DNA of 46,116 nucleotides from a virus: positions 1 through 46,116 of the IMG/VR virus record IMGVR_UViG_3300017783_000048. One strand, 5' to 3'. Below the pieces are notes generated by a model. The model did not search any database. It worked only from the letters and a program-made list of their open reading frames with translations, and was not told the DNA's origin. Position numbers and translations under genes: made by a program. Of the stretch, positions 16,722-36,998 are shown piece after piece (positions within the stretch are counted from its first letter, which is position 1; the number at the start of each line of letters is the position of its first letter).

Positions 16722-16729
16722 TATTTATA
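16722..16729 (-). promoter_or_regulatory. T4-like late promoter (TATAAATA, perfect) overlapping a stop codon
   Basis: Read on the minus strand this is the exact T4 late consensus TATAAATA. It contains the TAA stop (16725-16727) of the 6757-codon gene and sits 20 bases before the start of the 412-codon gene. Function is inferred from the consensus match. Confidence 0.8.
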
Positions 16730-19700
16730 GGATCTCTGGATCAACTAGTTCTTCACCGTAAAGTGAAAGATCTGGAGCAACCCAGTCATCAGGAACCGAT
16801 GTCTCGACGGCAACGATAGGTTCTTGATATCCTGTACCCTGATTTAAGATTTCGACGCCTGCAACACCGACTAGAGCACGAACCTGACCACCATTACCAT
16901 TGCCGTTGATAGGCGTAAGTGTGATAGATGGTCTAGATGTGTAACCTGATCCGCCTGCAGTAACCGAGACTTGATCTATATATCCACTCTTGATTGCTGC
17001 CGTTGCACGGGCATTCTGACCAAAGACGGACCCGAGATAGTCAAAAGTGATTAGAGAGTTGGACGATTCGATAACCGCAACCTCGCGATCTTCAGTCTCA
17101 CCCTGAATCGAGAGCAAGTCGCCCGATTCAATTGGTGGTACAACCTCAGCAGCATCAACGTCTGCCTCAGAACCAACGTATGCGAAAGCAACAAATGTAG
17201 ATCCTACGCGAGGGATTTCAGAGAAGTTAATTCTAGAACCAACAATCTCAAAACCAACGCCAGGTTCCTGAATAACACCATTGATTGAGACGATGATGTT
17301 ATTCTCGGGCAAGATTGTACTGGATTGAACACCATCAGTAACCGTAAGAGAATAGAATGTATCATTACGCCTGAGGTTAAAGGATTGGCGTAAGGAGTCA
17401 AACTCGAAAGAGATGTCGTCAAGTTGTCTCATCTTACCAAGATAGAATCCTGTAAATGTTGCTCCAAGTTCAGGTGCCTCATTAAACTCAATTTTGTTAG
17501 AGTATGCAGTGAATGCCTTGGCGGATCCAGGAGGTTGTAGAATACCATTGATAAAGATCATCATATGCCCTGCAGAATCAGGGAAGTAATCAACGCCGTT
17601 AGTGATAGTCAGATCAAAGATTCTAGTTGTGCCATCAAATCCTTTAGATGAACGCTTGACACGCGCCTTAAGGATTTTCTTAAGAACAATTGCCGACTTG
17701 TAATCATCAGGTCCAATAATGCCATCATTTTCATCAAATGTTCCGATGATGTCTGCGAGATATAGTCTCAGGTTCAAACCATCTTGACGGATGTCCTGAA
17801 CTCTTGCTGCAGCAACACCTGCGGTTGTAGTGGTAGCAATAACAGAACCATAACCAACAGGGAACGCTCCCGCGAGACCATAGTCACCAACTGCTTCACC
17901 TGTAGTGAATTCTCCACCAACAAACGGTCTATAGTAAATAAAGTTATTATCAGTATCAACACCAGTAACAATGCCATATTTCGTGCTGTCCTGATTTGAA
18001 CTAGAATCAAGTCTGTATAATCTATTACCAACTGTAAAGTCGTTTAGACCTTGTAGAATGTTTAGTTGTAAGCGAATGTTACCAGCAGAAGCAATCCTGT
18101 CGCCAACTGAGATCTCAAAACCATCATACTTAGATACTGTCAGATACTCTCTAGAGTCTGCAGGATAGATAACCGCGTTAAGATCGAATGCACCCGAAAT
18201 TGATTCCGTATCAACAACCAAAGTTCCACCAGTATTATTAAGAACTGCTGCACTATTATCAATAAACGAGGTAGGAGTTGCAGTTGCAGTTGATGTATAA
18301 CCTTTGAAAGGAACACCAGTTTCAAACGAACCGCGAAGGTCGATAATATGAATTCTATCTTCAATTGCACTAATTTGAGCAGTGGTACTGTTCGTAGTAC
18401 CAACAATCGAATCGCTAGCGGACCATGTACCACCAGTCACTCTTACATCAAGATATTTGTAGTTTTCATCTTGAGTGAATCCATAAACAACACCTGTAGT
18501 TGTTCCATCACCAACCTTACTGACACTCTCGTTCATTACATATGGTCCATCCGTGATGTCACCATCAATACGGAATCTCTGGTAAACTTGAACAACCTTT
18601 CCTTCATTAAGAGACTTAAATTCAACGGTAGCGTAGTTGTTAGTAAGGTTGGAGTAGAATGAGTCACCTCCAGTAATGCCACCCGAAATACCCGATGGAA
18701 TGGTACGAACACCATAGTCCTTGGCGGGTCTTACAATGCCATTGTTTCTAGTTACACTGGTGTAGTGGTTATTGTTAAGAAGTTGTGCCAGGATAATATC
18801 AAGTGTATTATCGGTCAGTCTTCTAGTTGCATACTCGCTAGTGGCAGTACCAAGAGGTGCATAGTAAACCGAACCAACTCCACTAGTAGGACCAGGATTA
18901 ACTAGAGTATTTGTTGCTGCTTGCCTCATGTATCCACGAAGCAGACTCATTGCATATGATCTGATGTTAAAGTCGATATCAGCGAAGAATATATCACCAT
19001 ATTGCGATTGATAAGGATCAAGAGGACCCTTGAACAACTTAGCACCCCAGACATAAATGCCATTAGCACTGCTGCTTGCGTTATAGTTTTGAGAACCAGT
19101 AAGATCCTTAATGATTATTTCTGCACCAACATCGGTATAACCGAAACCAAATGCACTGTCAATGAACACTCTGAACCAACCATCACCATAAGGTGTTACA
19201 CCGTAACTTCCAACTACGTCATTGATAGTAATAACAATGTCATCTACCAATCCATTACCATTCTCAGGTCCAACAACCAAATTGGTTGTATCTCCAGACT
19301 TAAATCCAGTACCACCGTTAAGAATACGAACAGTTGTGTTATAAGATTCATCGACAGTTACTTCAAACTCAGCAAGGGATCCTGTAGAACCAGAGTTTTG
19401 TGAAGTAACAGCAGTGAACGTGTACGTGCCAGGTTCTCTGTTTGCTGTAGCAGTTGCAGAGTCATTAGAAACATCTGCAGTGAACACCGAAATTTCACCA
19501 TTTGCCATTGCAAGATTGCCACTAGGACTTCTAAAGATACTAGTGCTAGTTTGACCATCTGAGAATCCAAGGTCAAAGAAAAGTGATTTTTCTGCTGCCG
19601 AATCGCGCCCAAGAACCATCTTAAATCTTATTGAAGATGAATCTTCTGCCTTGACGAAAGCAGAGATGCTGTATCTCTGTCTCTCACCCTGAACCTGAGA

Positions 19701-22700
19701 ACCAGTATCAAATGTTTCTGTATTATTATCAAATGTTACTGAAGTAGCATCGAATGTTTGATACGCAGTCAGGTTGTAGATTCTACGAATAGATCTAGTT
19801 CCTGTTGCAGAATCAGAGAATTCAATCTTGTCTGCAGTTACAGTCCCATCAGGGGCAGCAATTTGATCATTAGTGAAAGTTCCTCCTCCACTAGTTACTG
19901 TGCCAGAAACATCAGTAGTAGTAACCCAGTTAGTGGCATATGCTTCGGGGTTTAACCAGAGGTTTGTTCCAGGAAGTAGACCAGAAATGCCTGTGGTAAG
20001 TGCTCCCGCAGTTTTGAGTGTCTTTACATTACCAGGTTTGACATAATAATCAATGATTGTTGGTGCAGAGTTTATTGTTGGTGCGAACGCAGATGTAGAA
20101 CCAGTCAAAGTCTCAGCATTTTGGAATGTGCCTGTGTAGACTTCAATATAAACCGATTGATCTTCTGTACTCCACTCAAGAACTTTGCCAGTTGCAGTAG
20201 AAGTTCCGCCAGTTACAGTCTCACCAATAGTGAAGTCGCTAGTGATTGAATCTACAGTAACGAAAGTAGCAGATTTTTTGTCTGTAACATCTGTAGTAAG
20301 AGCATCATGAACTGTGTCGTTAATTACAGTGTCAACAAACTCAGTGTATTCTGTCTTCCAAGTATTGGCACCAAACTGGGTATTAACCAAGTTGGTAATT
20401 TCATTGACATAATACTGTCTGTTATAAAGAACGTTCTTAGAAAGATCTCTAGCAATTTGCTTACCAGGATTGATAATTGATACTGCAAGATCAACCAACT
20501 CATCCCATCTGTTAAGAACTGCATTGATATCAGTGATTGTCAGTGAATCATTTACAGGAAGTTCGTCAGTATACAATGGATAATATTCAGTTGCTGTTGT
20601 AGTACCAGTATTGAACTGATAATGCTGATCTTTAATGACAAACTCACCAACAGTCTTGAGTTGTTCGATGGAGTATGTGGTCGCAAGAAGTTCGTCTTCG
20701 ATATGATTCAGAATACCTGCTGCTGTCAGATAGAGTTCGATTGCAGAAATCGTGCTGTTGTTACCACCAGTCTGTATATCCGAAATAATAGACAGAATAA
20801 TTAGTTTCAAATCTCTTTGACACTTCAGTTCACCACCATCAGGATATGTGAATGCATTATATTGCGTAGCATCGATATTATACTGGAATTCGTTAGTTGT
20901 AAGACCAGTGATTTCTTCTGCGATATATTGGCGGTTAAAATATAGACGATCTGCAGCAATGAAGTTATCAGTATTAGAAGGTGCAACGATATCATTCAGA
21001 GTTTGAATCAAAGTGTCAATTGCAGATGCAACATTAGCACAGTAAGGACTACTAGAATCTGTAGTAATGCCCCAAGGACCGATAATAATGTTGTTTGTGT
21101 TATCAGTCGTTAGTTCTCCTCTAATTGCCTCCTTCATGTAATATGCCAATCTTTCATGTGCATATTGTGATTGCCAAACTTGTAATCTGATATGACGAAT
21201 TACGTTGCTAGCACCAAGATATTGCTTAGATACCTGAACGGTATTTACGTTACCACCGTCCATAATATCCTTCACAAGTTCCTGAACAATCGCAGTCAAG
21301 TCTTGCTGACAACGTAGTGTACCAGATCCTGCCGTAACGACGTTTCTAGGCATTTCATTTGCCAGATCAGGATATCTCTGAAGAAGATCGTAAGATGCTT
21401 TATCAACAATAACACTGATGTTCAGTGTAATCAGATTTGCTGCATCTCGGAATCTATTCTGAGTATCTGCGTCAATTTGATTGGTATATACCACATCATC
21501 AGTTGCGTTGTGATTTTCAATCGTGAAAGGAACTTCCAGATATCCATCAACTGTAGCACCACTGAACTCATATACAGGTTCTAACTTAGTTACAGTTGCC
21601 AAGTGGTTAACTGCAGGAGAAAGATTTGCATTTTCTAATGTATCTCCAATAATACTCATGAGAGTAGATACCGTGTTCTTGACATCTACACAATCCATAA
21701 GATTGTATTCAGTCTTAGAAACTGCATTTGTAGTTGCACTTACAAATGTGTGTACATATTGCTGACCAACTGGTGAAGGTTGTACATTGATAGTAAATGT
21801 ATCGGTTGTTGACGCAGAGATCTCAAGAATCTGATTTGCTGCAGGGTCAGTAGAACGAGGATATGCAATTTGGAAAGTATTTCCATCTTCATCACATGTG
21901 AAAGTAATAGATTCAGTTGCAAGATAGATTGCATCAGGTGCTTTAGTAACACCTGTAGAAGCACTAACGAATGTGTGAGTGTAGTTACCACCAGCAACAA
22001 CAGCATTAGATGTTGCACTTACAAATGTGTGTACATATTGATCACCAGCACCCGAAGCACCAACATTAACTGTGATCGTATTATCCTTCTTGACGATACC
22101 ATTTGCAGTTGCACTTACAAATGTATGTGAATACTGATCGTCAGCACCAGAAGCACCAACGTTAACCGTAAAGGTGTCTGTGGTTGTTGAGGCAACATAT
22201 AACCATCTACCACTAGCAAAGTCCGTAGAACGAGGATATGTATGATTGGTTACATTTAGATCCCTACTACAAGTGAAAGTTAGTGAATTGTCCTCAATTC
22301 GGATCTTATCACCAACAACAAATCCATGACCAGCAACTGTGATATTCAATAAACCATTAGAAGGAGTATATGTAGCACCTGTTACTGTACTGGTAGCACC
22401 ATTCTGAAGAATATCTAGAGAAGTATTTGCAGCAGGGTCAGAAGCACGAGGATATGTGTGATTGCTAGCATTACTATCCATTGAACATGTAAACGTCAAC
22501 GAATCGGTAGTCAGACTGATTTGTTGACCAACTTCAAGGTTGTTGTCAGGCAAAGTTAGAACCATAACACCAGTTGCAGGATCATATGTTGCAGCACTAG
22601 GTTCGTAATTAACGGTAGGAGATTTGCCAACGTTAACTTCAAATGTGTTTGTGGTGGAGTTAGAAACTTCTAACCAACCCTGAGATGCAGGATCATTTGC

Positions 22701-25700
22701 ACGAGGATATGTCTTATTAGCAGTATTTCCATCAGAGGTACAAGTAAATGTGAGAGAATCATCTGTGAGTCTGATTCGGTCTCCGTTACTGAGACTGTGA
22801 TTTGCAATGGTCAGTTCCATAACACCTGTTGTAGGCGCATATGTGGCACCTGTGGGTGCTGTAGTAGTGACTTCTGCATTCAATCCATGACTTGCAGATG
22901 TGAGTACAAGTTCGCCAGTGGAGGAGTTGTAAGTTGCAGTAGTAGGTGTGAGTTGTGTTAATGTAGCACCACTAGATTCGGTGATTGTAGTGTCAAATTT
23001 CTGCGTGAGACCATGATCACCCTGAACGTTCCAAGGAACATTATTAATGACATATTTAACAATTTCTTCCGTTTTCTGTAGGGTATACAGTGTTTCAGGA
23101 ATCTCTGTTTCAATGTGATTAAGTGTAATTGGAGTCTGAGTCTGATCAATATACAGAGCAGCAGCATCCCAAACATGATTGTTGCTACCGTTTCTCAGAT
23201 CATCGACAACTGCATCAAGAATATCTTTTACATCATCTTCGCAATTTACTGCCCCACCAATGACGGTGAAGTATGGATAGCGATTCTTCATAATCTGAAC
23301 TGCTTCTTGAGCAATAAACTCCTTGTTCTTAATAACATTGTCAGCAGCATTAATATATCTGTGTGAGTTGCCAGTAAATCCTGCAGGAGAAGCAGCAGAA
23401 GATCTGTTAGTTGCTAATAGTGCATCATTATTGAAGTATTCGCCAGTAGTAAAGTCTTGTGTTCCAGACCAGTCTTCAGTATAAACCTGACCGTCTACAC
23501 CATCAAAGTGGACCAACAACCTAGAGTTAGTATCACCTTGTAATGTACCATTTCTAGGTGTAAATGATGCATCGGCATATCTGTTGGTATTAGAAACTCT
23601 GATCTCGTCGATATGACCAGAGAATGTATTTGCGCCGTTGTAATCACCACCGATGTAAAGTGGAGCAGTAGAACCAAAATCTGTAGCATTGGTGATAGAT
23701 ACTTGCTCGACACCACCAACATACAGTTTCATCGTTGTGCCGCCTCTAACCAGGGCAATATGTGTCCAGGTATTCGCAGTAATAGGAGTGCCCGATGCGG
23801 TAAGTGTACTTGCACCACAAACTGCAGTTACTACATCTGCATTGACATAGATTCTAATAACTTCAGTAGCACTAGATCTTAGATCAGCAATATATCGAGT
23901 TCCTGCAGTAATGTCATCTGCACGAATCCATGCCTCAATTGTGAATGAAGCAGTACCGAAACCAAATTCAGTGGATGTAGTTATGCTGATATGATCGCTT
24001 GTAGTGTCATCCAACAGCAAGGAAGAAGATCCAAACTTCTTCTCTGCAGTGTCCAATTGAGCACTACCGTTAAAGGTCAATGTATGATAGTCTTGACCAT
24101 TAGACTTGGAACGACCAATCTTACCAAGATATACAGTTCGCAGAGCGGCATTATAACTAATAACTTCTGCTTTCGTATCTCTAGTTCTGATGATTTGACC
24201 ACTATTAAAGAATCCTGTGCCAATTTTATCAGTAAGAGAAAGTTTCCTTACGACAGCACTTTCGCCAGCAGAGAATTCTCCACTGTTACCACCATACTCA
24301 AACTTATAATTTCTAATGATCTCATTTTCCTGAATAGGACCACTAACAAGGTTGTTGTAAGGAATTACATAGTTGTTGATAAATTCAGTTGGGAAGTCTG
24401 TATTGAATGCCGTGAGATTGTCAGTGAAGTCAACAATAGAAACCTGAGAGGATGAAATATCATCAATAACAACGTTTGGATATGTTGTAGAAGGAATTCT
24501 GTTAAATAACAGACCAAAGAATGTAGAAGAACCAGAAATGATAACTCTATCAATAGGATCGCTGGTTACAGGGTCAGTGTAATCTTGTACGCCTGTAATT
24601 CTAGCAACAACGCCAGATTCGCCTGCAATGATGTAATCATTTACGTTGATGGAGAATAGACCAGGTGTAGATTGATATGTACCAGTGGTCTTACTCAAAG
24701 TCAGGTTTTGAGTAATATCAATTTCTGTGCCGTAGATAAACGTTCCTGCACCTCTAGGTGCTTGGAAACTTACATTTACAGGTGTATCTACACCTCTAGT
24801 TACAGTCAGTGTTTGAGACTGAGATCCTGTAACGATGTTATCTACCAAGAAGATTTCTGGTCCAAACTGATACTTGCTACCAATTTCAAACGAATCTGTG
24901 GCAGGTGGAGCATCTTCAATGTCAGTAACCGTGATAGTAATACTATTACCACCAGGCAGAGATAGTGAATCGCCAACAACATATCCAGTTGCATTTGAAG
25001 TATCAAAGGAGATACTTACAATAGTGCCTGTAGCATTAACTGTCCAAGTTGCTAGTAGACCAGTTCCACGTCCACCTTGTAGTGGAGATGCAGTTCTATT
25101 CTCATAACCCTGAGAAGTCAATGTAGAATTGGTTCCAAAGTCAATAGGAACTCCGCTAACAGAAACAACCTCAAAAGAAGATGTTGCTTGACCGATGCTA
25201 TATCTCAGAACACCTGCAGGAAGATCCGAATCAGTTGACAAGTTGACTTGCTCAACTCTTGCAGTATCTCCATCAAATGCTGTGATTGTTTCACCAAAGA
25301 TAAACAGACCGCCAGAACTTGTAGTTGTAACAACATCAACTAAAGCAGAGAATCCAGTCTGAGTTATGTTAACCAGTTCATTCTGAAGGAATGTTCCAGG
25401 ATTAGATGTAACTGGATTACCATCATTATCACAGATGAAACCGCGAATAGTATTGCCGATAACACCAGTAACTCTTAACTGCACTGCTGGTGAAGTGGCA
25501 CTACCGATCATTCTCATCCCAACCAGAGGGAAGATACCACTGATATTAGAGAATGATACGTCAACAGTTGTAATCTGTTCAAAATTAACATTTGCATACT
25601 TAACACTTGCAGCAGGTTGAGGTGGTTCTGCAAAGACGATATTTTCTCCTTGAACTTCAAATGCAACACCAGGTGTCTGTACAACACCGTTGAGGACAAT

Positions 25701-28700: not shown

Positions 28701-31700
28701 CTGGTTTGTACCCTCTTTAAGCAGCAGTTTCGTGCCGATAGTAAAATCAAATGCCTGATTTACATTCAGACGTAAGATATTGTCAATCTTAGTTGTACCA
28801 GTAAGTTTGAAGTAATACCTATCTTTAACGACAGCAGTAATGCTAAGTTTTTGAGAACCAGGAGAAGGGACAGTTGCTGTTCTAGAACTCCAAATATCAT
28901 TACTATAAGTAAGTGCCTCAGTATCAGCATTCATCGTGGTTGTTGCTTGATCATAATCAAGAGACTGGAATCCAATGTCACCTAAAGTATATCCAGTAAC
29001 ACTAACAGTACCACCAGTTGTAGTAATTGCAGTAGAACCTGTTGTTCTAGTAAGTTTGCTAGTTGTAAATGTGCCGATTCTGGCAGCATCACTATTTTTG
29101 TCAGTTTTGAGACCAAATCCACGCTGGTCGATATAATCGTATCTTTGGATGTTGCTTGTAAACCATGCAGTATCAGTCCAGGTATAACCAAGAGCAAATG
29201 TATCAGTTGGGGGTAAAGCGGTGATATCAGATGGTACTGTAGGTGTAATTAGTCTATTTCTAAGTCTGACATGATTCAGATAGAACTGACCTTGCTCATC
29301 AGCACGGAATTCTCCTGTGGTTCCATTCCAACCAGGTTGGTTGCCAAAATGGATGTCTTTGTTTGCAAAACTTGTAGTTGTCTGAGTTCCTGTAATTACA
29401 CTAATACCATTTACATATACAGTATAAGCATCTCCATTTTTAGTAATTCCAATTGTCTGCCAAGAATCATCAACAAACATGTTGGTCAATGTTGAGTATA
29501 GGGCACCAGAAGCAGCATTGAGTTTGGTTGATGTGTTAGTAATGGCAAGACCTAACTTACCATTGTTCACACCAGATCCGAAGGTGTCGTAATATAGAAT
29601 GAGACCACCAGTTGCATCTTCAGCGTCACCAATAGAGAAAATAGTATGCTTGGTTGCACCAATAGCATTATTAGTGATTTGTGTTGCATCTTTATGTAAG
29701 AACAACTCTACTGTCCAGTTACTATCCAGTATTGTACCCAGTTCACTAGAAGGGACCTTGATTGCTTGAGTTTCATATGCAGAACCATCCCAACCACTGA
29801 TATTAGTGCCAGTTGAAGTATAAGTTGGAGTTCCGATTACACTAGGGGTATAATGAGTTGTAATATCTATTGGTGCCTGATCCATATCAAGCAAAAATTC
29901 ATTACGGTTGAATTGGATCTGACCATAAGCGAATACGTCGCCAGAGTTGTCTGTGGTCATTGCATATGCAATTGCACCCTCAACATTGTCCTGAATAAAA
30001 TCATTAATAGTGTGAGAAAGAACTTCACCGTTATACTTAATTTTAACCGTTCTTATAGTTTTGTTCTTAGTAGTAGGATCTGTATGATTGTAAACGACGT
30101 TCAGATCACCAAAGATGTCAATAGATGTTTTGTTAACAACATTGATAGTCTCATTTACTGCGGGTCTAAAGATCTTGTACCAAATAAGATTTCCTGCATT
30201 ATCAACCTTAAGGACTGAGAATGAATCTTGCAAAGTCGTATCAGACTTGCCTCTAAGAGTTGAAGTTACATAATACTCATTAAATTCGTCAGTAATGATG
30301 CTTTGATCAATTTGCGAATAAGAAGTATTGTTGTATTGCTTAATATAGTCGATGCTAATTGCAGAAACACCAGCAGTTGCTTTACCAATTGCAATATTAA
30401 CATCAGTACTAGAATCATTTGGAGAAACTTCCATCGAGAAATAGATAGAACCTTCATTGAAAATCATCGAAGTGATTTTTTCAGAAGCACTCTCAGATGC
30501 AAGTTTTCTCTTTACAGTAAATGTTCCTGTGGTATCCAGAATTGCAATGTATGCATCCCAAGGATTGCCTGAGTTTGTATTAGTGTAACCACCAATTGCA
30601 ATACGAGTGCTGCTGATCTTAACAATAGATGTGACATCATCATATCTTGTAGAACCAGAGATTCCTGCAAACGCTCTTTGCAGATCTAATGTGGCACTCA
30701 ATCCATCAGCAGATTGAGTGTATTTTGCGAGAATAATATCTGGGTTTTTGTTGTCAAAGAGTTGGTCATTTGGTTTGTTGATACCAACGACATAAATCGT
30801 GTCGCCATCAACACAAAGTTTCTTAAATTCTGCATAATCTAGTCCTGTTTGACTTTCGAGTGTCTTTTCCCACTCCTTAACACCAGTTGCAGACAACTTA
30901 GCGATAAACGCTACGGTATCGCCACTACTATTCTTAGTAGTACCACAAATAAATGATTCTTTCGTGACAGAAACATATACATCATTAATTCTCACATAGT
31001 CGTTATTATCGATCAGTGCCGAGAAATAATCTGCTTTTTTGAATATCTGTGGGTGAGAAAGAATGACTCTGGGGTTTTGTGTGTATCCAGAACCAGAATT
31101 CAAGATATTAACTCTTTCGATAGAACCAACAGAGCTTACTACTGCTTCCAAAGATCCTGCTGTCGTACCGTCACCATCAATTGTCATTGTGGGGGGAATA
31201 TCTTCGTTATATCCAGACCCAGTTTGATTAATGACGATTTCTTCAATACCTTTGTACTGACGAACATTATAAGTCTTATTTGTGTTCTCCATCAGAGGAG
31301 AATAGTCAACAAATACAGTATCGCCTACTGTAAGGTTGTGCTGAACGTCTGTGGTAAGAACACCATAGTTTACACCACTAATAATTTCGTAATCATAGGT
31401 TTGAATCGTTTCTCCAGAAATTCTAGCGATTCTTGCCGATACACCATCGCCATCAGTGTCTGTATTGTCGAATACAAGTCTATCATTAACCTGATAGTTC
31501 TGTCCAGGGTTTTCAATAGTAAATCCTGTTACAGAGGCATCTTCAAACTTAGTAGTAGTCTCAACTTCGATATCAACCTTAGAATCAAATCTAACTTTAG
31601 GGAAGTAATCAAATAGTTGCAGAGGAGACTCTTCAAATAGTTGATCAGGATCAAAATATTCGTCACCAAGAGTAATAGTTGCTTGACCACCATCAATAGT

Positions 31701-34700
31701 GACTACATCACCAGTAGTGTATCCAGAACCGATATTATTATATCCCCACTTCTGAATAGAACCATTAGGATCAACATCCCAGATGGCAATAGTCATTCCT
31801 GTGCCAGTACCACCAGAAGTTCCAACAGTAACAAAGTCGTTACCGCTTGTAGGACCACTGTATCCAGTTCCTGTACTAAAAATGTCGATATAACCATCTC
31901 GATTCTCATCTTCAATGTCCAACAGCAAGATATCGCCGTTTTCCATTGTTAATGCATTAGTAGAGACGTTAGGTGCCCTTTCAACATCAATATCAACGTT
32001 TTCGTAAGGATCACGATAACGAACAACACCTGTAGGAATATTTTGCTGTGTAGCACCCGAATCTAAGTTCCAAATATCAACAACTGAGTTGTAACTTGGT
32101 CCTAGGATATAAGGGAACTCTGGATTACCTTGCTCTGTAGCATCAATAGTAACAAAGTAGCAATATCTGCCATTTGCAAACTCAGGAGTCTTACAGAAGC
32201 GACCATTATACTGGTCGAGATCACCAAGACTGAAAATATACTCATAGTCATTGATAAATGAACCTGCAGCATCATCTGTCAGCAGAGGACCATCTTTTCT
32301 GAATGGATTTGTATATACAGTTCCATCAGTATCTGTAAATGGTGTTGCAGCAGCGGCAGTTAGATTGCCTTTCAGTCTATATGACGTATCAAGTTTTCTA
32401 ATGGTGGAGTTTTGATTAGTTGGGTCAGAATATCCATAAGGACCATAAATCGGATTACCATCAAATGCCCAACCAATGATTGGAGAGTGATCTACAGTAG
32501 TTTCTTCAATATCTACTTCATTGATAACTCCATTCTCTTCTGAGAGATTGTCGCCAAGGATGAATCTGAGTTTTTGTGGATTGGAAAGGTGTGCGTACTC
32601 GCCACCAAACTGAGTATTGTAACCATCGAATACAGAACCCCGAGCCGTGTCAAAAGTAGTAGTTGCCTGCAGGTTATATGTCCACTGGAAGACGTTGGAA
32701 CTGAATGTTGCACCTTGACCAACAGAAGTAAGATTTACAATCGTGGTTCCTTGTGTATATCCAATACCTCTATTGATAATTTCGATACCAGTGACTTTTC
32801 CTGCCTCAGGACCGTCAATATCGATAACTGCTCGTGCGACAGCACCAAAACCTTCACCTTGAATGGATACTTCGGGTGCAGTGGTATATCCAGAACCACC
32901 AGAAATTCTAGCAATGGAAATGATTCTACCATTCTGAATAACTGCCTGTGCAACAGCACCAGATCCAGAACTTACAGTTACAGTCGGTTTGGATGTATAT
33001 GATGATCCAGATTGAGCAATGTTAATTGACTGAATAGGACCACGAACATTAGCAACCGCTTGTACTCCTGTTCCACCACCACCAACAATCGATACAGTTG
33101 GTTGTGATGTATACCCTGTGCCAGATTCATTAATAAGAACTCTTGATACAATGCCTTTAGTAGTAATTGCAGTTGCAGATGCACCCGAACCGCCACCACC
33201 AACGATAGAGACAAGGGGAGAAGATGTAAATCCAGAACCACCAGCAGTAACTTCGATAGAATCTAGAGTACCATCGATAACTACATTTGCTTGTGCTCCA
33301 GTACCACCACCACCATCGATAGTGACAGTAGGTGGTGTAGCAGCATCATAATTCTGACCCCTGGTGAGAATATCGATACTAGTAACAGATCCAAAGGTTT
33401 TGGTTTCTGTAGACTTATAAGACCAAACTGAGACACCATTCACCCACGTACCGACAGGACCAGAAGTGATTTCGTTCTTAGTTGAGATTGTAGTCGGTGC
33501 TAGTGGGAATCTATTTAACTTACGCTGGTTACCAGGAAGGAAAGCAGAACCAGGGAAAGGTCCAATTTCATAGTTAGGAATACCCGTAGAAGCAACATAA
33601 ACGTACTCTGTGTTAAAGAAAGAGTTTTGTACGTTTGTGGTATAGAAACTAATTGCATTATTAACTGCAGCATTAGGCGACTTACCTTTGTTCAAGTCAA
33701 CAGAGATGAGAATATTTCCCTGAGGAATAACTTGAGCAGGTTGAGGTAACTGATACTGGAACTGGGTTTCGTTGTCTCTAGAGGTTACAAGGAATGTTCC
33801 GTTATAGATGATTGGATTGGCACCATAAATGGTTACCTGATCACCAACCAAGAGACCATGGGAGTTTTCAGTGACGATTGTGGCAACATCATTGTTAGTA
33901 CCACCATAAGTGACTGATGTCACTGAAACAAGTTTTTTAACGTTATACAACCATGTCGTGAGTTCTTTTCTAGTACTAGTACCACCAAGTTTAGAAACAG
34001 ATAGTTTATCACCAGGAAGATAGTAAGAACCAGTGTCAGTAAGGGTTGTTTGTTGGGCATCAACAATACCAACAATATTCATAACCACTTCCTGAGCAGT
34101 ATCTTTATTGATGTATACAGTAAAGTTAGATGTGATCTGTGTGGAAGAATCCCAATCTTCTACAGTACCGTTGGAAGAACGAGTACACTCAATAAACTGG
34201 TTAAGAGATTTTTCCTTATATCGTACTAGTTCTGTACCACCGATAATGAATTCACCGTTTCTTTCTGGCCAACCAATCGTCGAGTCAACCGTAATAATAC
34301 TTTCGACAGTATTAAGAGGTTCTGCAAGTCTGGTTTTGTAAGGAACTGTGAAAGAACCGACGATAGTTTCTTCGGATAGTGCTAATTCGTAGATTTCAGT
34401 ATCAGATGTCTTAATAGAAATAAAGTTTTCTACAAGAGCACTTGCTGCCAGTACATTAGGATCCGCAATATCCTCTTCTTGAATCAAGAGACCATCTTGA
34501 ATATTATCGGGGTCTCCACTAACAAGAGTTGCACGAAGAACCGTATCGATAGACCAAGTTGCCGCAGAAGGTTTGATGATTTGATCTTTAGGGTAGGTAA
34601 TACTTACCTGCTCACCATAAAGAAGTTTAAACAGATAAGAAATACTGAAAGATGTACCTTTGGACTGATAGAAATCTCTAACTGTCTTGATAGCGGTTCT

Positions 34701-36998
34701 AACATCAATTCTCTTATAATCGAGTTCGGGAATATCTGGCAAATATTGCTCTTTATACTTGTCAAGCAGTCTCTTAACAAATAGTGCGTCAAGACATTTT
34801 ACTTGTACCCCAACTAAGGCAGACATTGCCATAGTGTTGTTGGAGAATACCGCATTACCGTCTTCGGTGTATCTTACAATACCGCTTGCTGCTCTTGCAC
34901 AACCTTCAAAGGATGCTTTGGTGTAATTAGAACCAGATTTATTAACTTTGAAACCCGTGATCTGATTGAGACCGATTTCGGCAGAAATTTTGCCTGTAGG
35001 GGAATCTTGAATGATAATATTCGGAGGATTATCAACACTATACCCAGAACCAAAATTTGTAACATTGATATCGGTAATTCTACCGTTAAAGATCTGCGCT
35101 GTTACACTAGCACCAGTACCACCAATATAATTGCCGAGATCGTCTGTTCTATCATCAACAACATACACAGAAGGTACGTCAGTGTACCCAGAACCGCCTG
35201 TAAGCAGTTCTACACCAATGACACGACCATTTCCATCAACAGAAGTTTCAAGCACCTGTGCGCCGACAGGATCAATGACCGCAATTCTAGGAGTTGATTG
35301 ATATCCTTGCCCAGTATTAATAATTTCAATCGAAGTAATTTCTCCTTCGGTTAGTTTTGCACGCAATGTTGCTTTGATTCCATCGTTACCTGTTGCTTCA
35401 TCGATGTAGATATCGGGTACAGTCGTGTATCCAAATCCACTGTCTAGGATAATAGGTGGTTCTGCCAGTGACCCATTGATGATCGTAGGAAGAGTTACAT
35501 TAGTAATAGTAGGAGCAGATGCGCCACTGTTAACATAAACCTGCTGATCTTTCGCGAAAACGCCGCTAGTATTAGCGTATTCAATAATACCAGTATTACC
35601 ATTACGGACAAACGATACAACCGTTGCAGTTTTCCCTGTAAGATTTACATTATCGGCAATAAGTTGTCCAGGAGTAAAATCAAAGATAGTGCCTGTATAT
35701 GTGACAGTTAAAACACCAGTCTCTTTAAATCCTAGTTTTGCGCCACCAGGTTGTTTAATACTAACTCTAGGTGTAAATGTGTATCCACTACCCGAAGATA
35801 CAATCTCAACAGCACTAATAGACCCCTCAGTGACCGTTGCTGCAAGAACAGCAATAGACGAACCTTCTTTGGTTGGTGATTCGATTTGAAGAGTCGGAGG
35901 ATTGGTTTCACTATAACCTTGTCCACCTTCCAAGAGTGATATAGATTTAACGCCATTGATCAGAGTAGTTGCGGATGCACCTTCTCCAACTCTACTGTTA
36001 ATACTTGCTTTTGGCGGATAATCATACCTGTAGTTAGATCCATTATCATTAACTGATATGCTAGTGAGTCCCCCGTTCTCGTTTACACGGGAATACCCAA
36101 TACCACCAGAACCAAAAGACGGGATAGGTGCCTCAATAGAGTAGATAGACACAATTCTACCATTAACAGGCGCAACATTAAAGATGAACTTATCTTTATC
36201 GATAAAGAAATCGACCTTTGGCACTAACAAGCGGTTGTCGTAGATTGCAATAACATATTCATCTACTTGTGGTTCGTATTTAACTCCGTTGGAAGTAAGT
36301 GCAAAAATAGTTTTCGATTCACCGAAAGAAGAGGAAATATTATCAATTGCCGCAATTTGGTTCTCAACGTAACCACCCAAGTAGTAGACGTAAGTAGAAA
36401 TATCATCATCAGAAGGAATCCTTGTTCTAGGTGCTTCTGTAAAGACAATAGCAGTTCCATCTAACTGATAATCTACATTCTGAAGTAAAACTCTACCGTA
36501 GATACTAACAATCAGATGTTGTACGCTTGGTACTGATACAGGACTTTCCCTAGAAGTCAGTTCAAACCTTCTTGTAGATCCATCAAATTTATTGATCAAA
36601 TTTGCCAGAATAGTCCACTTGACTCTTACTTGCTCATAAGAGATACCAGGAGACAAAGAAATATTAGGAGAAGAAATTTTTCTTTCATAGAAAATTACTT
36701 CATCACCGATCAAGACAGATCCGTTTCTATCAATAAATTCATCAACAGATTCTACAACAATAGATGTGGAACTATCAGTGATAGGTTCTACAAGAGATGT
36801 TGCACCATCAAGAATACTGATATCAAGTTTATCGATATCAAGATAATTTAGATAATTATTAACAATATTTTGACCAAGACCCGTCTTTTCCTGGGACTGG
36901 TAGTAGTACTCCAGGAATTTATTGAACATAGGATAATCCTGTTCAATAAACCCTGGGTTTTGAGAACTTACTGAGTTAGATACTTTATTGACGGACAT
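16725..36998 (-). CDS. Giant mosaic baseplate/tail protein in the gp7 position, 6757 aa
   Basis: A single open frame with no internal stop. It lies between gp6 and gp8, where T4 carries gene 7 (1032 aa), so it may be the wedge initiator, but I see no clear T4 gp7 motif. The N-terminus (NPGFIEQDYPMFNKFLEYYY) is typical of marine T4-like structural proteins. Approximate layout: FDG-ING modules at 138-270; Gly-Tyr repeats at 300-700, 1199-1420, 1700-1990 and 3176-3400; YHYH-type domain at 1504-1636; propeller-like stretch at 1995-2360; LamG-like domains at 2415-2590 and 4304-4500; conserved YYYQEFSYAVKS and HPASFKVFGE near 3610-3660; FDG-ING at 3736; tandem HTFVSAT repeats at 4690-5085; helical Cys modules near 4584, 5231 and 5392; jelly roll at 5675-5990; FDG-ING pair and final Gly-Tyr copies at 6450-6750. 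There is no signal peptide. It starts three bases after gp6. Confidence 0.9.
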   Translation of the reverse strand: MSVNKVSNSVSSQNPGFIEQDYPMFNKFLEYYYQSQEKTGLGQNIVNNYLNYLDIDKLDISILDGATSLVEPITDSSTSIVVESVDEFIDRNGSVLIGDEVIFYERKISSPNISLSPGISYEQVRVKWTILANLINKFDGSTRRFELTSRESPVSVPSVQHLIVSIYGRVLLQNVDYQLDGTAIVFTEAPRTRIPSDDDISTYVYYLGGYVENQIAAIDNISSSFGESKTIFALTSNGVKYEPQVDEYVIAIYDNRLLVPKVDFFIDKDKFIFNVAPVNGRIVSIYSIEAPIPSFGSGGIGYSRVNENGGLTSISVNDNGSNYRYDYPPKASINSRVGEGASATTLINGVKSISLLEGGQGYSETNPPTLQIESPTKEGSSIAVLAATVTEGSISAVEIVSSGSGYTFTPRVSIKQPGGAKLGFKETGVLTVTYTGTIFDFTPGQLIADNVNLTGKTATVVSFVRNGNTGIIEYANTSGVFAKDQQVYVNSGASAPTITNVTLPTIINGSLAEPPIILDSGFGYTTVPDIYIDEATGNDGIKATLRAKLTEGEITSIEIINTGQGYQSTPRIAVIDPVGAQVLETSVDGNGRVIGVELLTGGSGYTDVPSVYVVDDRTDDLGNYIGGTGASVTAQIFNGRITDINVTNFGSGYSVDNPPNIIIQDSPTGKISAEIGLNQITGFKVNKSGSNYTKASFEGCARAASGIVRYTEDGNAVFSNNTMAMSALVGVQVKCLDALFVKRLLDKYKEQYLPDIPELDYKRIDVRTAIKTVRDFYQSKGTSFSISYLFKLLYGEQVSITYPKDQIIKPSAATWSIDTVLRATLVSGDPDNIQDGLLIQEEDIADPNVLAASALVENFISIKTSDTEIYELALSEETIVGSFTVPYKTRLAEPLNTVESIITVDSTIGWPERNGEFIIGGTELVRYKEKSLNQFIECTRSSNGTVEDWDSSTQITSNFTVYINKDTAQEVVMNIVGIVDAQQTTLTDTGSYYLPGDKLSVSKLGGTSTRKELTTWLYNVKKLVSVTSVTYGGTNNDVATIVTENSHGLLVGDQVTIYGANPIIYNGTFLVTSRDNETQFQYQLPQPAQVIPQGNILISVDLNKGKSPNAAVNNAISFYTTNVQNSFFNTEYVYVASTGIPNYEIGPFPGSAFLPGNQRKLNRFPLAPTTISTKNEITSGPVGTWVNGVSVWSYKSTETKTFGSVTSIDILTRGQNYDAATPPTVTIDGGGGTGAQANVVIDGTLDSIEVTAGGSGFTSSPLVSIVGGGGSGASATAITTKGIVSRVLINESGTGYTSQPTVSIVGGGGTGVQAVANVRGPIQSINIAQSGSSYTSKPTVTVSSGSGAVAQAVIQNGRIISIARISGGSGYTTAPEVSIQGEGFGAVARAVIDIDGPEAGKVTGIEIINRGIGYTQGTTIVNLTSVGQGATFSSNVFQWTYNLQATTTFDTARGSVFDGYNTQFGGEYAHLSNPQKLRFILGDNLSEENGVINEVDIEETTVDHSPIIGWAFDGNPIYGPYGYSDPTNQNSTIRKLDTSYRLKGNLTAAAATPFTDTDGTVYTNPFRKDGPLLTDDAAGSFINDYEYIFSLGDLDQYNGRFCKTPEFANGRYCYFVTIDATEQGNPEFPYILGPSYNSVVDIWNLDSGATQQNIPTGVVRYRDPYENVDIDVERAPNVSTNALTMENGDILLLDIEDENRDGYIDIFSTGTGYSGPTSGNDFVTVGTSGGTGTGMTIAIWDVDPNGSIQKWGYNNIGSGYTTGDVVTIDGGQATITLGDEYFDPDQLFEESPLQLFDYFPKVRFDSKVDIEVETTTKFEDASVTGFTIENPGQNYQVNDRLVFDNTDTDGDGVSARIARISGETIQTYDYEIISGVNYGVLTTDVQHNLTVGDTVFVDYSPLMENTNKTYNVRQYKGIEEIVINQTGSGYNEDIPPTMTIDGDGTTAGSLEAVVSSVGSIERVNILNSGSGYTQNPRVILSHPQIFKKADYFSALIDNNDYVRINDVYVSVTKESFICGTTKNSSGDTVAFIAKLSATGVKEWEKTLESQTGLDYAEFKKLCVDGDTIYVVGINKPNDQLFDNKNPDIILAKYTQSADGLSATLDLQRAFAGISGSTRYDDVTSIVKISSTRIAIGGYTNTNSGNPWDAYIAILDTTGTFTVKRKLASESASEKITSMIFNEGSIYFSMEVSPNDSSTDVNIAIGKATAGVSAISIDYIKQYNNTSYSQIDQSIITDEFNEYYVTSTLRGKSDTTLQDSFSVLKVDNAGNLIWYKIFRPAVNETINVVNKTSIDIFGDLNVVYNHTDPTTKNKTIRTVKIKYNGEVLSHTINDFIQDNVEGAIAYAMTTDNSGDVFAYGQIQFNRNEFLLDMDQAPIDITTHYTPSVIGTPTYTSTGTNISGWDGSAYETQAIKVPSSELGTILDSNWTVELFLHKDATQITNNAIGATKHTIFSIGDAEDATGGLILYYDTFGSGVNNGKLGLAITNTSTKLNAASGALYSTLTNMFVDDSWQTIGITKNGDAYTVYVNGISVITGTQTTTSFANKDIHFGNQPGWNGTTGEFRADEQGQFYLNHVRLRNRLITPTVPSDITALPPTDTFALGYTWTDTAWFTSNIQRYDYIDQRGFGLKTDKNSDAARIGTFTTSKLTRTTGSTAITTTGGTVSVTGYTLGDIGFQSLDYDQATTTMNADTEALTYSNDIWSSRTATVPSPGSQKLSITAVVKDRYYFKLTGTTKIDNILRLNVNQAFDFTIGTKLLLKEGTNQRMSGYIVSSDSENNTIDVSISIPTSSGNSWSDYLNVGELSTVQFDEQSVFNIVGPTPNDVNEFVYTFLQVEDTTVGNFTFALNTFDAPVTIGGTNNLNLFGKFKPYIAADYNIRIEEVTSTSPYIVGSVVEVPTVDDGQGNLVPQISYNADYSSVTITNLTGVTKITLVSNLEKILNVSSVNSSDTVYVITSSAHYLDAGDMIFVDGNPTRTIVDVEYDEYDGAFAVDSIISPLEFTYKLNQVALTLPADSAGLVNIFTKSPTIKMYYDHQYIFDISHPTMTGGNLSFSKDNLYKLEYSFNSIERVGTPGTTGATVKLKVDTGIVTNISYYFDPSRTGADSPVIPGSYLDVVKSPYNGTFIISSTSGGTITSGDDTFKFVLLNEPEAAAIAARATYSTSSVKAVGSINSIRIVNPGGFYKRLPIVSNILSSRKIERVEINEPGTQYAVGEYTGIAIAGDGEGGFVSVTVADQLNSEGATVPGQVIAVTITSPGKGYTTASVDIDGISGIGADVGGSGGDVTVIIPPFGTGASIFTIGDNVGKIKKLKNNNFGYDYPHDYTLRPEITFPINAQLTSTSILDSITVTDPGSGYSQPPAVVIVGGGGSGAIAEATIKNGRLDQIFVKDAGSGYSSTPTVTLKSSFNYVVNLDLGLLQFAFPHGIQNGAEITLNAVDTGEGVEFPLASGAIGRLNATTTYYAIAGTAQSLEDNQLKIAITQNNADLGDALTFATDGTGRQQVLTESFGGGAEANVITSTFLEGELVYQGDSLENATATGFVSTNDGWQVGPRILKIVDYDGTFNEGSKITGVISKSSGTISNLKIAKGVLEIGSITKTTGQFIDDVGKPSEIIQKIQDSYYYQEFSYAVKSAISINEWKEILIRNVHPASFKVFGELNLSEYGFIPNKETAFQLTKSVQLAREAIFPNIQSFALVEPIYSEFNNTELLFRQKRLTSSENILTSTVQRLDDISTLFDGQRISFPLTVSEAGDSGTSIIASDSQLMIVLNGVVQTPGVAFEVQGENIVFAEPPQPAASVKYANVNFEQITTVDVSFSNISGIFPLVGMRMIGSATSPAVQLRVTGVIGNTIRGFICDNDGNPVTSNPGTFLQNELVNITQTGFSALVDVVTTTSSGGLFIFGETITAFDGDTARVEQVNLSTDSDLPAGVLRYSIGQATSSFEVVSVSGVPIDFGTNSTLTSQGYENRTASPLQGGRGTGLLATWTVNATGTIVSISFDTSNATGYVVGDSLSLPGGNSITITVTDIEDAPPATDSFEIGSKYQFGPEIFLVDNIVTGSQSQTLTVTRGVDTPVNVSFQAPRGAGTFIYGTEIDITQNLTLSKTTGTYQSTPGLFSINVNDYIIAGESGVVARITGVQDYTDPVTSDPIDRVIISGSSTFFGLLFNRIPSTTYPNVVIDDISSSQVSIVDFTDNLTAFNTDFPTEFINNYVIPYNNLVSGPIQENEIIRNYKFEYGGNSGEFSAGESAVVRKLSLTDKIGTGFFNSGQIIRTRDTKAEVISYNAALRTVYLGKIGRSKSNGQDYHTLTFNGSAQLDTAEKKFGSSSLLLDDTTSDHISITTSTEFGFGTASFTIEAWIRADDITAGTRYIADLRSSATEVIRIYVNADVVTAVCGASTLTASGTPITANTWTHIALVRGGTTMKLYVGGVEQVSITNATDFGSTAPLYIGGDYNGANTFSGHIDEIRVSNTNRYADASFTPRNGTLQGDTNSRLLVHFDGVDGQVYTEDWSGTQDFTTGEYFNNDALLATNRSSAASPAGFTGNSHRYINAADNVIKNKEFIAQEAVQIMKNRYPYFTVIGGAVNCEDDVKDILDAVVDDLRNGSNNHVWDAAALYIDQTQTPITLNHIETEIPETLYTLQKTEEIVKYVINNVPWNVQGDHGLTQKFDTTITESSGATLTQLTPTTATYNSSTGELVLTSASHGLNAEVTTTAPTGATYAPTTGVMELTIANHSLSNGDRIRLTDDSLTFTCTSDGNTANKTYPRANDPASQGWLEVSNSTTNTFEVNVGKSPTVNYEPSAATYDPATGVMVLTLPDNNLEVGQQISLTTDSLTFTCSMDSNASNHTYPRASDPAANTSLDILQNGATSTVTGATYTPSNGLLNITVAGHGFVVGDKIRIEDNSLTFTCSRDLNVTNHTYPRSTDFASGRWLYVASTTTDTFTVNVGASGADDQYSHTFVSATANGIVKKDNTITVNVGASGAGDQYVHTFVSATSNAVVAGGNYTHTFVSASTGVTKAPDAIYLATESITFTCDEDGNTFQIAYPRSTDPAANQILEISASTTDTFTINVQPSPVGQQYVHTFVSATTNAVSKTEYNLMDCVDVKNTVSTLMSIIGDTLENANLSPAVNHLATVTKLEPVYEFSGATVDGYLEVPFTIENHNATDDVVYTNQIDADTQNRFRDAANLITLNISVIVDKASYDLLQRYPDLANEMPRNVVTAGSGTLRCQQDLTAIVQELVKDIMDGGNVNTVQVSKQYLGASNVIRHIRLQVWQSQYAHERLAYYMKEAIRGELTTDNTNNIIIGPWGITTDSSSPYCANVASAIDTLIQTLNDIVAPSNTDNFIAADRLYFNRQYIAEEITGLTTNEFQYNIDATQYNAFTYPDGGELKCQRDLKLIILSIISDIQTGGNNSTISAIELYLTAAGILNHIEDELLATTYSIEQLKTVGEFVIKDQHYQFNTGTTTATEYYPLYTDELPVNDSLTITDINAVLNRWDELVDLAVSIINPGKQIARDLSKNVLYNRQYYVNEITNLVNTQFGANTWKTEYTEFVDTVINDTVHDALTTDVTDKKSATFVTVDSITSDFTIGETVTGGTSTATGKVLEWSTEDQSVYIEVYTGTFQNAETLTGSTSAFAPTINSAPTIIDYYVKPGNVKTLKTAGALTTGISGLLPGTNLWLNPEAYATNWVTTTDVSGTVTSGGGTFTNDQIAAPDGTVTADKIEFSDSATGTRSIRRIYNLTAYQTFDATSVTFDNNTETFDTGSQVQGERQRYSISAFVKAEDSSSIRFKMVLGRDSAAEKSLFFDLGFSDGQTSTSIFRSPSGNLAMANGEISVFTADVSNDSATATANREPGTYTFTAVTSQNSGSTGSLAEFEVTVDESYNTTVRILNGGTGFKSGDTTNLVVGPENGNGLVDDIVITINDVVGSYGVTPYGDGWFRVFIDSAFGFGYTDVGAEIIIKDLTGSQNYNASSSANGIYVWGAKLFKGPLDPYQSQYGDIFFADIDFNIRSYAMSLLRGYMRQAATNTLVNPGPTSGVGSVYYAPLGTATSEYATRRLTDNTLDIILAQLLNNNHYTSVTRNNGIVRPAKDYGVRTIPSGISGGITGGDSFYSNLTNNYATVEFKSLNEGKVVQVYQRFRIDGDITDGPYVMNESVSKVGDGTTTGVVYGFTQDENYKYLDVRVTGGTWSASDSIVGTTNSTTAQISAIEDRIHIIDLRGSFETGVPFKGYTSTATATPTSFIDNSAAVLNNTGGTLVVDTESISGAFDLNAVIYPADSREYLTVSKYDGFEISVGDRIASAGNIRLQLNILQGLNDFTVGNRLYRLDSSSNQDSTKYGIVTGVDTDNNFIYYRPFVGGEFTTGEAVGDYGLAGAFPVGYGSVIATTTTAGVAAARVQDIRQDGLNLRLYLADIIGTFDENDGIIGPDDYKSAIVLKKILKARVKRSSKGFDGTTRIFDLTITNGVDYFPDSAGHMMIFINGILQPPGSAKAFTAYSNKIEFNEAPELGATFTGFYLGKMRQLDDISFEFDSLRQSFNLRRNDTFYSLTVTDGVQSSTILPENNIIVSINGVIQEPGVGFEIVGSRINFSEIPRVGSTFVAFAYVGSEADVDAAEVVPPIESGDLLSIQGETEDREVAVIESSNSLITFDYLGSVFGQNARATAAIKSGYIDQVSVTAGGSGYTSRPSITLTPINGNGNGGQVRALVGVAGVEILNQGTGYQEPIVAVETSVPDDWVAPDLSLYGEELVDPEIL
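16800..17010 (-). repeat. C-terminal Gly-Tyr repeat pair of the giant protein
   Basis: Two copies of the beta cassette (GSGYTSRPSITLTP and GTGYQEPIVAVE) close the giant protein, joined by a GNGNGGQVRALV strand. Confidence 0.7.
17280..17650 (-). repeat. FDG-ING module pair in the giant protein
   Basis: Two consecutive copies of a module in which F-D-x3-(R/S)-x-F-x-L is followed after about 30 residues by I-x-(V/I)-(S)-I-N-G-x-(I/L)-Q-x-P-G and an F-x-E-x-P-x-x-G strand. The copies include FINGILQPPG and SINGVIQEPGVGFEIVG. Related copies lie near residues 138-200, 223-270 and 3736-3800. Confidence 0.72.
18990..19990 (-). other. Carbohydrate-binding-like jelly-roll domain in the giant protein (interrupted)
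   Basis: Residues about 5675-5990 follow the pattern of phage fibre jelly rolls: NLWLNPEAYATNWVTT, AAPDGTVTADKIEFSDS, RYSISAFVKAEDSS, FFDLGFSDGQT, then GDGWFRVFIDS and NGIYVWGAKLFKGPLDPYQ. About 100 residues, including a Gly-rich GGTGFKSGD stretch, sit between the FDLG and GDGW strands where the usual domain has a short loop. Sugar binding is a family expectation only. Confidence 0.6.
20300..23330 (-). repeat. Helical Cys-containing modules (three copies) of the giant protein
   Basis: Three segments share C-(E/Q)-x-D-(V/L), a hydrophobic helix, and D-(L/I)-x-x-G-(S/G)-N: CEDDVKDILDAVVDDLRNG near 4584, CQQDLTAIVQELVKDIMDGG near 5231 and CQRDLKLIILSIISDIQTGG near 5392. Between copies one and two lies the HTFVSAT beta-repeat region, so helical and beta modules alternate. 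Confidence 0.65.
21733..22930 (-). repeat. Tandem HTFVSAT / YPR beta repeats in the giant protein
   Basis: Residues about 4690-5085 hold repeated units: a LTFTC-(S/T/D)-x-D-x-N segment with YPR-x-x-D-(P/F)-A, a T-x-T-F-x-(V/I)-N-V segment, and HTFVSA(T/S). At least four YPR and five HTFVSA copies are visible. Two DNA segments (21733-21761 and 22012-22040) are identical over 29 bases, and a third copy near 22108 is close, which indicates a fairly recent duplication. Confidence 0.8.
23490..24090 (-). other. LamG/concanavalin-like domain 2 in the giant protein
   Basis: Residues about 4304-4500 show LTFNGSAQLDTAEKKFGSSS, SFTIEAWIRADDIT, NTWTHIALVRGGTTMKLYVG and IGGDYNGANTFSGHIDEIRV, the classic order of a LamG-like jelly roll ending in the xGxIDEIRxS strand. 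Such domains usually bind glycans or proteins. Confidence 0.85.
26780..27480 (-). repeat. Gly-Tyr repeat block 4 of the giant protein
   Basis: Residues about 3176-3400 hold GGFYKRLP, GTQYAVGEY, GKGYTTASVDI, GSGYSQPPAVVIVGGGGSGA and GSGYSSTPTVTL. The block also contains a PPFGTG turn like the PPPGG turn in gp8. Confidence 0.8.
29230..29760 (-). other. LamG/concanavalin-like domain 1 in the giant protein
   Basis: Residues about 2415-2590 include SNWTVELFLHKDATQI, HTIFSIGDAED, SWQTIGITKNGDAYTVYVNG, IHFGNQPGWNG and FYLNHVRLRNRLI. The strand order fits a LamG-like fold, but it is clearly different in sequence from the second copy. Confidence 0.75.
29920..31020 (-). other. Beta-propeller-like stretch in the giant protein
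   Basis: Residues about 1995-2360 repeat a blade-like pattern of G/D-x-x-(Y/F)-(V/I)-x-G, then a D-x-x-(V/I)-A-K-(L/Y) strand and G-x-x-x-W: SFICGTTKNSSGDTVAFIAK with GVKEWEKTL, DTIYVVGINKPND, IAIGGYTNTNSGNPWDAYIA and LIWYKIF. It resembles SBBP-type propeller repeats of bacterial surface proteins. The exact number of blades is not clear by eye. Confidence 0.6.
31050..31900 (-). repeat. Gly-Tyr repeat block 3 of the giant protein
   Basis: Residues about 1700-1990 hold GTGYSGPTSGNDFVTV, GSGYTTGDVVTIDGG, GQNYQVNDRLVF, GSGYNEDIPPTMTIDGDG and GSGYTQNPRVIL, which lead directly into the propeller-like stretch. Confidence 0.8.
32080..32490 (-). other. YHYH-type domain in the giant protein
   Basis: Residues about 1504-1636 contain IIGWAFDGNPIYGPYGY, SYRLKGN, NDYEYIFSLGDLDQYNGRFC, TPEFANGRYCYFVT and FPYILGPSYN, in the order of the YHYH protein family. 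The literal YHYH motif is not present. Function of the family is unclear to me. Confidence 0.8.
32740..33420 (-). repeat. Gly-Tyr repeat block 2 of the giant protein
   Basis: Six regular copies: GQNYDAATPPTVTIDGGGGT, GSGFTSSPLVSIVGGGGSGA, GTGYTSQPTVSIVGGGGTG, GSSYTSKPTVTVSSGSGA, GSGYTTAPEVSIQGEGFGA and GIGYTQG. It is the most regular array in the window, with a period of about 38-40 residues. Confidence 0.88.
34900..36100 (-). repeat. Gly-Tyr repeat block 1 of the giant protein
   Basis: Residues about 300-700 hold eight copies (GSNYRYDYPPKASI, GQGYSETNPPTLQI, GSGYTFTPRVSI, GFGYTTVPDIYI, GQGYQSTPRIAV, GSGYTDVPSVYV, GSGYSVDNPPNIII and GSNYTKASF), less regular than block 2. Confidence 0.85.

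Follow-up and report, generated by a model that had tools for sequence, protein, structure and literature searches.

The Giant Gene and the Baseplate Operon

The window, i.e., the whole stretch of DNA that was analyzed, is a 46,116-base virus record that is itself a fragment (a metagenome-derived contig), and 44% of it is occupied by one gene on the minus strand (16725-36998). As the earlier note had claimed, this is a single gene of approximately 20 kb that is open throughout: the frame starts with ATG and runs for 6,757 codons with zero internal stops, and the encoded protein has a calculated mass of 726 kDa. The openness of the frame is not due to chance, because the other five frames of the same interval contain 176-784 stops. 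GC and GC3 change little over the gene until the last ~250 codons, where they rise, and the sequence contains zero Ns.

The gene is part of a T4-like cyanophage baseplate operon. Read in gene direction, the operon encodes a wedge protein (PHROG 719), a PAAR-type protein, gp25, gp6, the giant, a gp9-like connector, a 1,419-aa YHYH protein, gp8 and a 2,675-aa DUF4815/VrlC-like protein, and the order gp25-gp6-giant-gp9-like-gp8 is T4-like. The giant directly follows gp6 in the wedge operon (36998 for the end of the giant, 37002-39077 for gp6), which is the position of gp7 in T4. The genes most relevant to the analysis are as follows.

39077-39496, minus strand: gp25 homolog (PF04965)
37002-39077, minus strand: gp6 homolog, the expected wedge partner (PHROG 219, PF21379)
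16725-36998, minus strand: giant gp7-type wedge protein, 6,757 aa, 726 kDa (open frame; PHROG 701 and PHROG 18802 over its length; gp7 motifs)
15464-16702, minus strand: gp9-like connector (PF07880, E 5.2e-7; PHROG 677)
9630-11162, minus strand: gp8 homolog (PF09215, E 1.2e-17)

Several of the neighboring genes have features of their own. The PAAR-type protein (PHROG 281; 39674-40234) precedes gp25, and is comparable to T4 gp5.4 before gp6. The 1,419-aa neighbor (PHROG 708; 11201-15460) has YHYH and other domains in common with the giant, which suggests that modules have been exchanged between genes of the operon. The 2,675-aa DUF4815 protein (PHROG 358; 1603-9630) belongs to the same family as the “virulence-associated structural protein” of S-WAM2, and is probably the VrlC of the literature. 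At the edge of the window (1-1053) is a protein that is truncated by the end of the record and has a major tropism determinant N-terminal domain (PF18454, E 6.6e-13).

A Family of Giants

The giant gene is genuine, and its kind is already known. The PHROG 701 profile matches over the whole giant, and the neighbors are the same as those of the Kyanoviridae giant gp7 proteins, a family that is present in hundreds of cyanophages and has lengths of 3,007-8,573 aa in most isolates checked. Matches to the N-terminal 666 aa of the giant came from 336 phage records and those to the first 150 aa from 397, all named Synechococcus, Prochlorococcus or cyanophage apart from 1-5 “Marine” records; the best identity to the N-terminal 666 aa is 53%, with none closer among the phage matches listed. 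Proteins in the same slot are those of P-RSM6 (8,573 aa), P-SSM4 (7,312, annotated gp7), P-SSM7 (7,124), ACG-2014d (6,817), P-RSM4 (6,603), Syn19 (6,483), S-RS29 (6,280), S-CREM1 (5,422), P-SSM2 (5,195), S-CAM9 (3,884), S-BM3 (3,849), S-RSM4 (3,515), S-WAM2 (3,446), S-SSM7 (3,007), S-H34 (1,942), Melnitz (896) and Ochrobactrum phage OC (631). The earlier note had placed the protein among the longest of phages, at about 6.5-fold the length of T4 gp7 (1,032 aa). The ratio holds, but the length is not exceptional in the family, since the P-SSM4 and P-RSM6 proteins are longer, and the size is an ordinary one for this group.

One 6,619-aa relative, S-SZBM1_208, has been detected in purified virions (71 peptides, 13.5% coverage; PMC9146016). 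The window giant resembles it and the other Kyanoviridae giants named “gp7 / baseplate wedge initiator” (e.g., P-SSM4 PSSM4_080 and P-RSM4 PRSM4_106; PHROG 701) in slot, core blocks and size class, and in having YHYH, LamG and phycobiliprotein-like domains, and it differs from them in its own variable zone and repeat content.

An assembly artefact fusing two genes had been raised in advance as a way in which the single giant might be illusory, and the window is, after all, a metagenome-derived contig. Such a chimera is ruled out for practical purposes, and we give it virtually no chance: isolate genomes have the same gene with the same architecture and neighbors, collinear blocks span the junctions, and GC3 is even over nearly the whole gene.

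Relationship to T4 gp7

The identity of the protein in this slot has been a disputed point. P-SSM4, P-SSM2 and S-SSM7 relatives are annotated gp7, whereas gp7 has been listed in the non-cyanophage core (PMC3037559), and has been described as absent from these phages, with VrlC appearing to take its place (PMC7029224). We therefore take up two alternatives along with the gp7 reading, namely that gp7 was lost and replaced by VrlC, so that the giant is a separate adhesin merely in the gp7 slot, and that the existing annotation, as a cyanophage gp7 of the usual kind, fully accounts for the giant.

A profile of six Straboviridae gp7 proteins was compared by hhalign with family profiles that tile the giant in 44 overlapping pieces of 300 aa. 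Clear matches occur at only two places in the 6,757 residues, and these are in T4 order. The first, motif A (aa 766-801), corresponds to T4 gp7 724-759 with 42% identity (E 3.6e-7 to 5.6e-8). The second, motif B (aa 3631-3657), follows motif A and corresponds to T4 gp7 866-892 (E 1.2e-5 to 8.5e-5), within a wider match of aa ~3530-3657 to T4 783-891 (E 1.2e-5). Both homologous segments are short (36 and up to 105 alignment columns), and the two motifs are separated by 2,829 residues in the giant vs 106 in T4 gp7. Two weaker matches (Prob 25 and 9) come from profiles that overlap blocks A/B or extend into block A in short relatives, while the remaining forward profiles give Prob ≤0.5 and the 44 reversed control profiles give Prob ≤1.2. 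The same two places are the top two matches to the gp7 profile when the window giant is used alone, without its family. The profile comparison with T4 gp7 that the earlier note had proposed thus yields a gp7-like core, in the form of two collinear motifs.

The family profile of block A, searched against the whole PDB, has T4 gp7 as its best match (E 9.9e-4), and that of block B finds T4-type gp7 only at E 0.06; single-sequence PDB searches with the giant gave nothing useful. AlphaFold models are of low confidence for both the block A region (window aa 690-1145, pLDDT 66) and the block B region (aa 3520-3800, pLDDT 60), and Foldseek with the low-confidence block A model gave nothing at E ≤ 1e-3, with a 1,004-residue T4 baseplate chain at rank 18 (E 0.049). 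There is no Pfam match in the giant for T4 gp7 domains V and VI (PF21427, PF21456). These two families are present in T4 gp7 and absent from OC gp7 as well, so domains V/VI are not universal in the wider gp7 family.

The replacement of gp7 by VrlC, in spite of the two papers that favor an absence of gp7, is improbable, because the giant has both gp7 motifs in order, and the VrlC-like neighbor (1603-9630, PHROG 358) has no gp7 signal (Prob 0.1 vs the gp7 profile). VrlC was accordingly rejected as the gp7 replacement. A separate true gp7 elsewhere in the genome, which would have argued against the gp7 reading, was not found in seven complete relatives (the window's own genome being incomplete): the PHROG 964 family of T4 gp7 matched the slot gene only in four of the seven, and nothing in the other three.

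A Split Core with Insertions

The 631-aa gp7 of Ochrobactrum phage OC provides the connection between T4 gp7 and the giant. It aligns with T4 gp7 645-891 as a single piece (227 columns, Prob 95), and with the giant as three pieces (giant aa 5-58, 764-876 and 3618-3700). Because OC gp7 aligns with T4 in one piece and with the giant in three, the giant is best described as a gp7 with a split core. The supported description, as deduced from these alignments, is that of a core of approximately 260 residues that is cut by insertions of ~694 and ~2,710 residues and followed by a 3,087-residue tail, as follows.

36819-36989, minus strand: core block N (aa 4-60), counterpart of the T4 gp7 helical domain via OC (OC 6-59; blastp E 1.5e-4, profile E 3.7e-8)
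34737-36818, minus strand: insertion 1 (aa 61-754), 694 residues vs 21 in OC (block spacing; single-origin clade on the gp6 tree)
34362-34736, minus strand: core block A (aa 755-879), with motif A at aa 766-801 (hhalign E 5.6e-8; best PDB match T4 gp7)
26232-34361, minus strand: insertion 2 (aa 880-3589), 2,710 residues vs 21 in OC (block spacing)
25989-26231, minus strand: core block B (aa 3590-3670), with motif B at aa 3631-3657 (hhalign E 1.2e-5; OC match E 1.9e-9)
16728-25988, minus strand: C-terminal tail (aa 3671-6757), 3,087 residues (block spacing)

OC gp7 has the same three blocks, contiguous and without the giant insertions. No direct match of block N to T4 gp7 was found, and the T4 gp7 helical domain (PF21428, T4 643-689) is reached from the giant only via OC gp7. 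T4 gp7 (5IV5, NP_049765) is like the giant in its position after gp6 and in having motifs A and B in the same order, and differs in that its 1,032 residues are without insertions and include N-terminal and domain V/VI parts that are missing in the 6,757-residue giant.

Block profiles find N, A and B in order in 18 of 18 Kyanoviridae proteins, with spacings that vary over a wide range. The N-A gap is 21 residues in OC, 108-135 in Melnitz, P-SSM2 and the short forms, and 609-694 in a long clade (694 in the window), while the A-B gap is 21 in OC, 311 in Melnitz, 1,473-2,155 in P-SSM2 and the short forms, and 2,524-2,739 in the long clade (2,710 in the window). The tail beyond block B has 38 to 4,959 residues across the family (3,087 in the window). 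On a gp6 tree, the proteins with the long N-A insertion, including that of the window, form one clade with 100/100 support. The members of the family, from 631 to 8,573 aa, illustrate the stepwise growth of a wedge scaffold at three constant sites, and the disputed point receives a testable answer: gp7 is not missing from cyanophage baseplates, its core being present and split by insertions.

We consider it probable (roughly three chances in four) that the giant is the gp7 ortholog in the baseplate of a marine T4-like cyanophage (Kyanoviridae), with a split core and with putative insertion loops and a putative tail arm for host binding. That it is simply an ordinary gp7 would fit the existing annotations, the PHROG 701 match spanning the gene, and the detection of a relative in virions. 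This simpler account is nevertheless unlikely to suffice, as the annotation is contradicted by PMC7029224 and PMC3037559, and neither the split core nor the phycobiliprotein-like tail domains were found described in the literature searched. What was already known comprises the giant family, the gp7 annotation and the virion presence of a relative; the test of gp7 identity, the split core and the phycobiliprotein-like domains are new here.

Domains of the Insertions and Tail

Outside of the core blocks, the giant with its split gp7 core contains the following recognizable regions.

32136-32696, minus strand: YHYH domain (aa 1435-1621), in insertion 2 (PF14240, E 6.8e-31)
29355-29528, minus strand: weak concanavalin-like (jelly-roll) stretch (aa 2491-2548; PF06439, E 5.4e-4, below cut-off)
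23583-24005, minus strand: LamG/concanavalin-like domain (aa 4332-4472), in the tail (PF13385, E 6.2e-22)
19149-25301, minus strand: hypervariable zone (aa 3900-5950), in the tail, with the lowest conservation among relatives
16728-19001, minus strand: conserved C-terminal module of long forms (aa 6000-6757; comparison with relatives)

The earlier note had described YHYH-type, propeller-like, two LamG-like and one jelly-roll-like domain. The YHYH domain is clearly present, and is a predicted metal-dependent hydrolase (PMC7824862). One LamG domain is also well matched, and LamG is present in four of five relatives checked; the second LamG or jelly-roll corresponds at most to the sub-cut-off PF06439 stretch, and no Pfam support was obtained for a propeller in the giant. 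A beta domain with the motif NGVxQxPG occurs at aa ~3730-3800 and ~6440-6620 (the C-terminal copies were spotted by eye), and the domain near block B resembles the P-SCSP1u cyanophage fibre and a capsule depolymerase in a PDB profile search.

T4 gp7 is a monomer with six copies per virion (PMC3004832). In XM1, the 242-aa gp7 ortholog (gp17) holds the wedge by an N-terminal helical motif, and binds tail spikes by an internal loop (80-106) and its C-terminus (201-242) (PMC10457771). We liken the giant to the XM1 protein, which is without the giant insertions, by this published description. By analogy, the cyanophage insertions would loop out of the wedge and the tail would extend from it as an arm, at places comparable to those of the XM1 ortholog, and both would present the binding modules directly. 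Blocks N, A and B would come together in one fold that supplies gp7's share of the (gp6)2-gp7 wedge scaffold. As in T4, each wedge would contain a single giant, for a total of six in the virion. Arms that bind the host are suggested by the YHYH and LamG domains together with the hypervariable zone (aa 3900-5950), which is the least conserved region, as would be expected of receptor-binding parts. The loops and arm may then replace or add to separately encoded fibres in host binding. The idea that the wedge protein has become a long adhesion structure is therefore retained insofar as this is a gp7-slot wedge protein with a gp7-like core, but the protein is not simply an adhesin, since the scaffold core of ~260 residues persists.

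Phycobiliprotein-Like Domains

The most surprising element of the giant is a set of phycobiliprotein-like modules. A Pfam Phycobilisome match in a relative was the starting point for defining a helical domain of ~116 residues, which has three copies in the tail of the window giant, each defined by profile matches.

23028-23375, minus strand: copy 1 (aa 4542-4657, Cys4586)
21099-21467, minus strand: copy 2 (aa 5178-5300, Cys5230)
20613-20957, minus strand: copy 3 (aa 5348-5462, Cys5393)

A profile of 19 copies gave 146 matches among all PDB sequences, and the best 60 of the 146 consist entirely of phycobiliproteins and smURFP, which is derived from them (best match E 1.1e-7, over phycocyanin 36-159); the same profile reversed gave zero matches. 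With the three window copies alone as the profile, 26 of 27 PDB matches are phycobiliproteins or smURFP (best E 1.9e-3), and single window copies fall under the Pfam cut-off for PF00502. Among 15 complete phage genomes, PF00502 matches only large virion-type genes, in five cyanophages. One copy searched by tblastn matched 351 of 50,697 phage records, all from cyanophages except for one “Marine” record. Repeated copies of ~116 residues occur in cyanophage virion proteins of two sorts, giant gp7 and tail fibres.

Residue numbers are taken from the profile-phycocyanin alignment. The chromophore positions Cys84 and Asp87 are present in all three window copies. In a set of 221 non-redundant copies, gathered by a profile masked at the Cys84 and Asp87 columns, retention is 84% for Cys84, 87% for Asp87 and 100% for Asn47. 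The likeness to cyanobacterial phycobiliproteins (phycocyanin alpha; PF00502) is in the globin-like core and extends over residues 36-159, with the Asn47, Cys84, Asp87 and Gly102-103 positions kept. In contrast to phycocyanin, the phage domains are fused and repeated in a virion protein and have low identity, and the N-terminal helices for the alpha-beta dimer are missing, as the match begins at phycocyanin residue ~36. These domains may represent a host-type fold that was recruited as tail modules, with bilin binding being putative.

CpeT and the Bilin Question

Co-occurrence with CpeT (PF06206, a phycobiliprotein-lyase relative) was examined in 22 complete cyanophage genomes. The phycobiliprotein-like domain is present in 17, and CpeT in 13 of these 17 vs 0 of the 5 genomes without the domain (one-sided Fisher 0.0048, ignoring relatedness of the genomes). 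Of the four domain-bearing genomes without CpeT, three have sub-threshold CpeT candidates. Bilin reductase genes have no association with the domain (6/17 with it vs 2/5 without).

The likely reading of the domains is that they are structural or adhesive spacers without chromophore, whose Cys and Asp are retained for the sake of the fold. This agrees with the lack of a link to bilin reductase genes, with the 16% of copies that have no Cys, and with the absence of the domain from S-H34, S-CAM9, S-SSM7, P-SSM2 and P-TIM68, all of which have the same baseplate plan. The co-occurrence with CpeT does not fit as readily, nor does the fact that Cys84 and Asp87 are among the best-kept positions in a set gathered with those columns masked. 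It is conceivable, though a long shot, that the tail domains bind bilin or need a lyase-type chaperone, such that phage CpeT serves virion domains rather than the host antenna. If true, the split-core giant gp7 would display pigment-type domains on the virion exterior. In cyanobacteria, lyases of the CpeT/CpcT type act on the Cys153/165 site and not on Cys84, which makes a straightforward lyase function less plausible; phage CpeT could also act as a chaperone.

We regard the CpeT association as a lead, with any functional role being putative, and it offers a direct handle on the purpose of phage CpeT. In S-WAM2, S-RSM4, S-PM2, S-RIM32 and S-CAM1, CpeT lies ~1-1.8 kb before a fibre gene (3,700-4,700 aa) that has 5-11 copies of the domain, while in P-RSM4, S-SZBM1 and P-HM1 it is located elsewhere.
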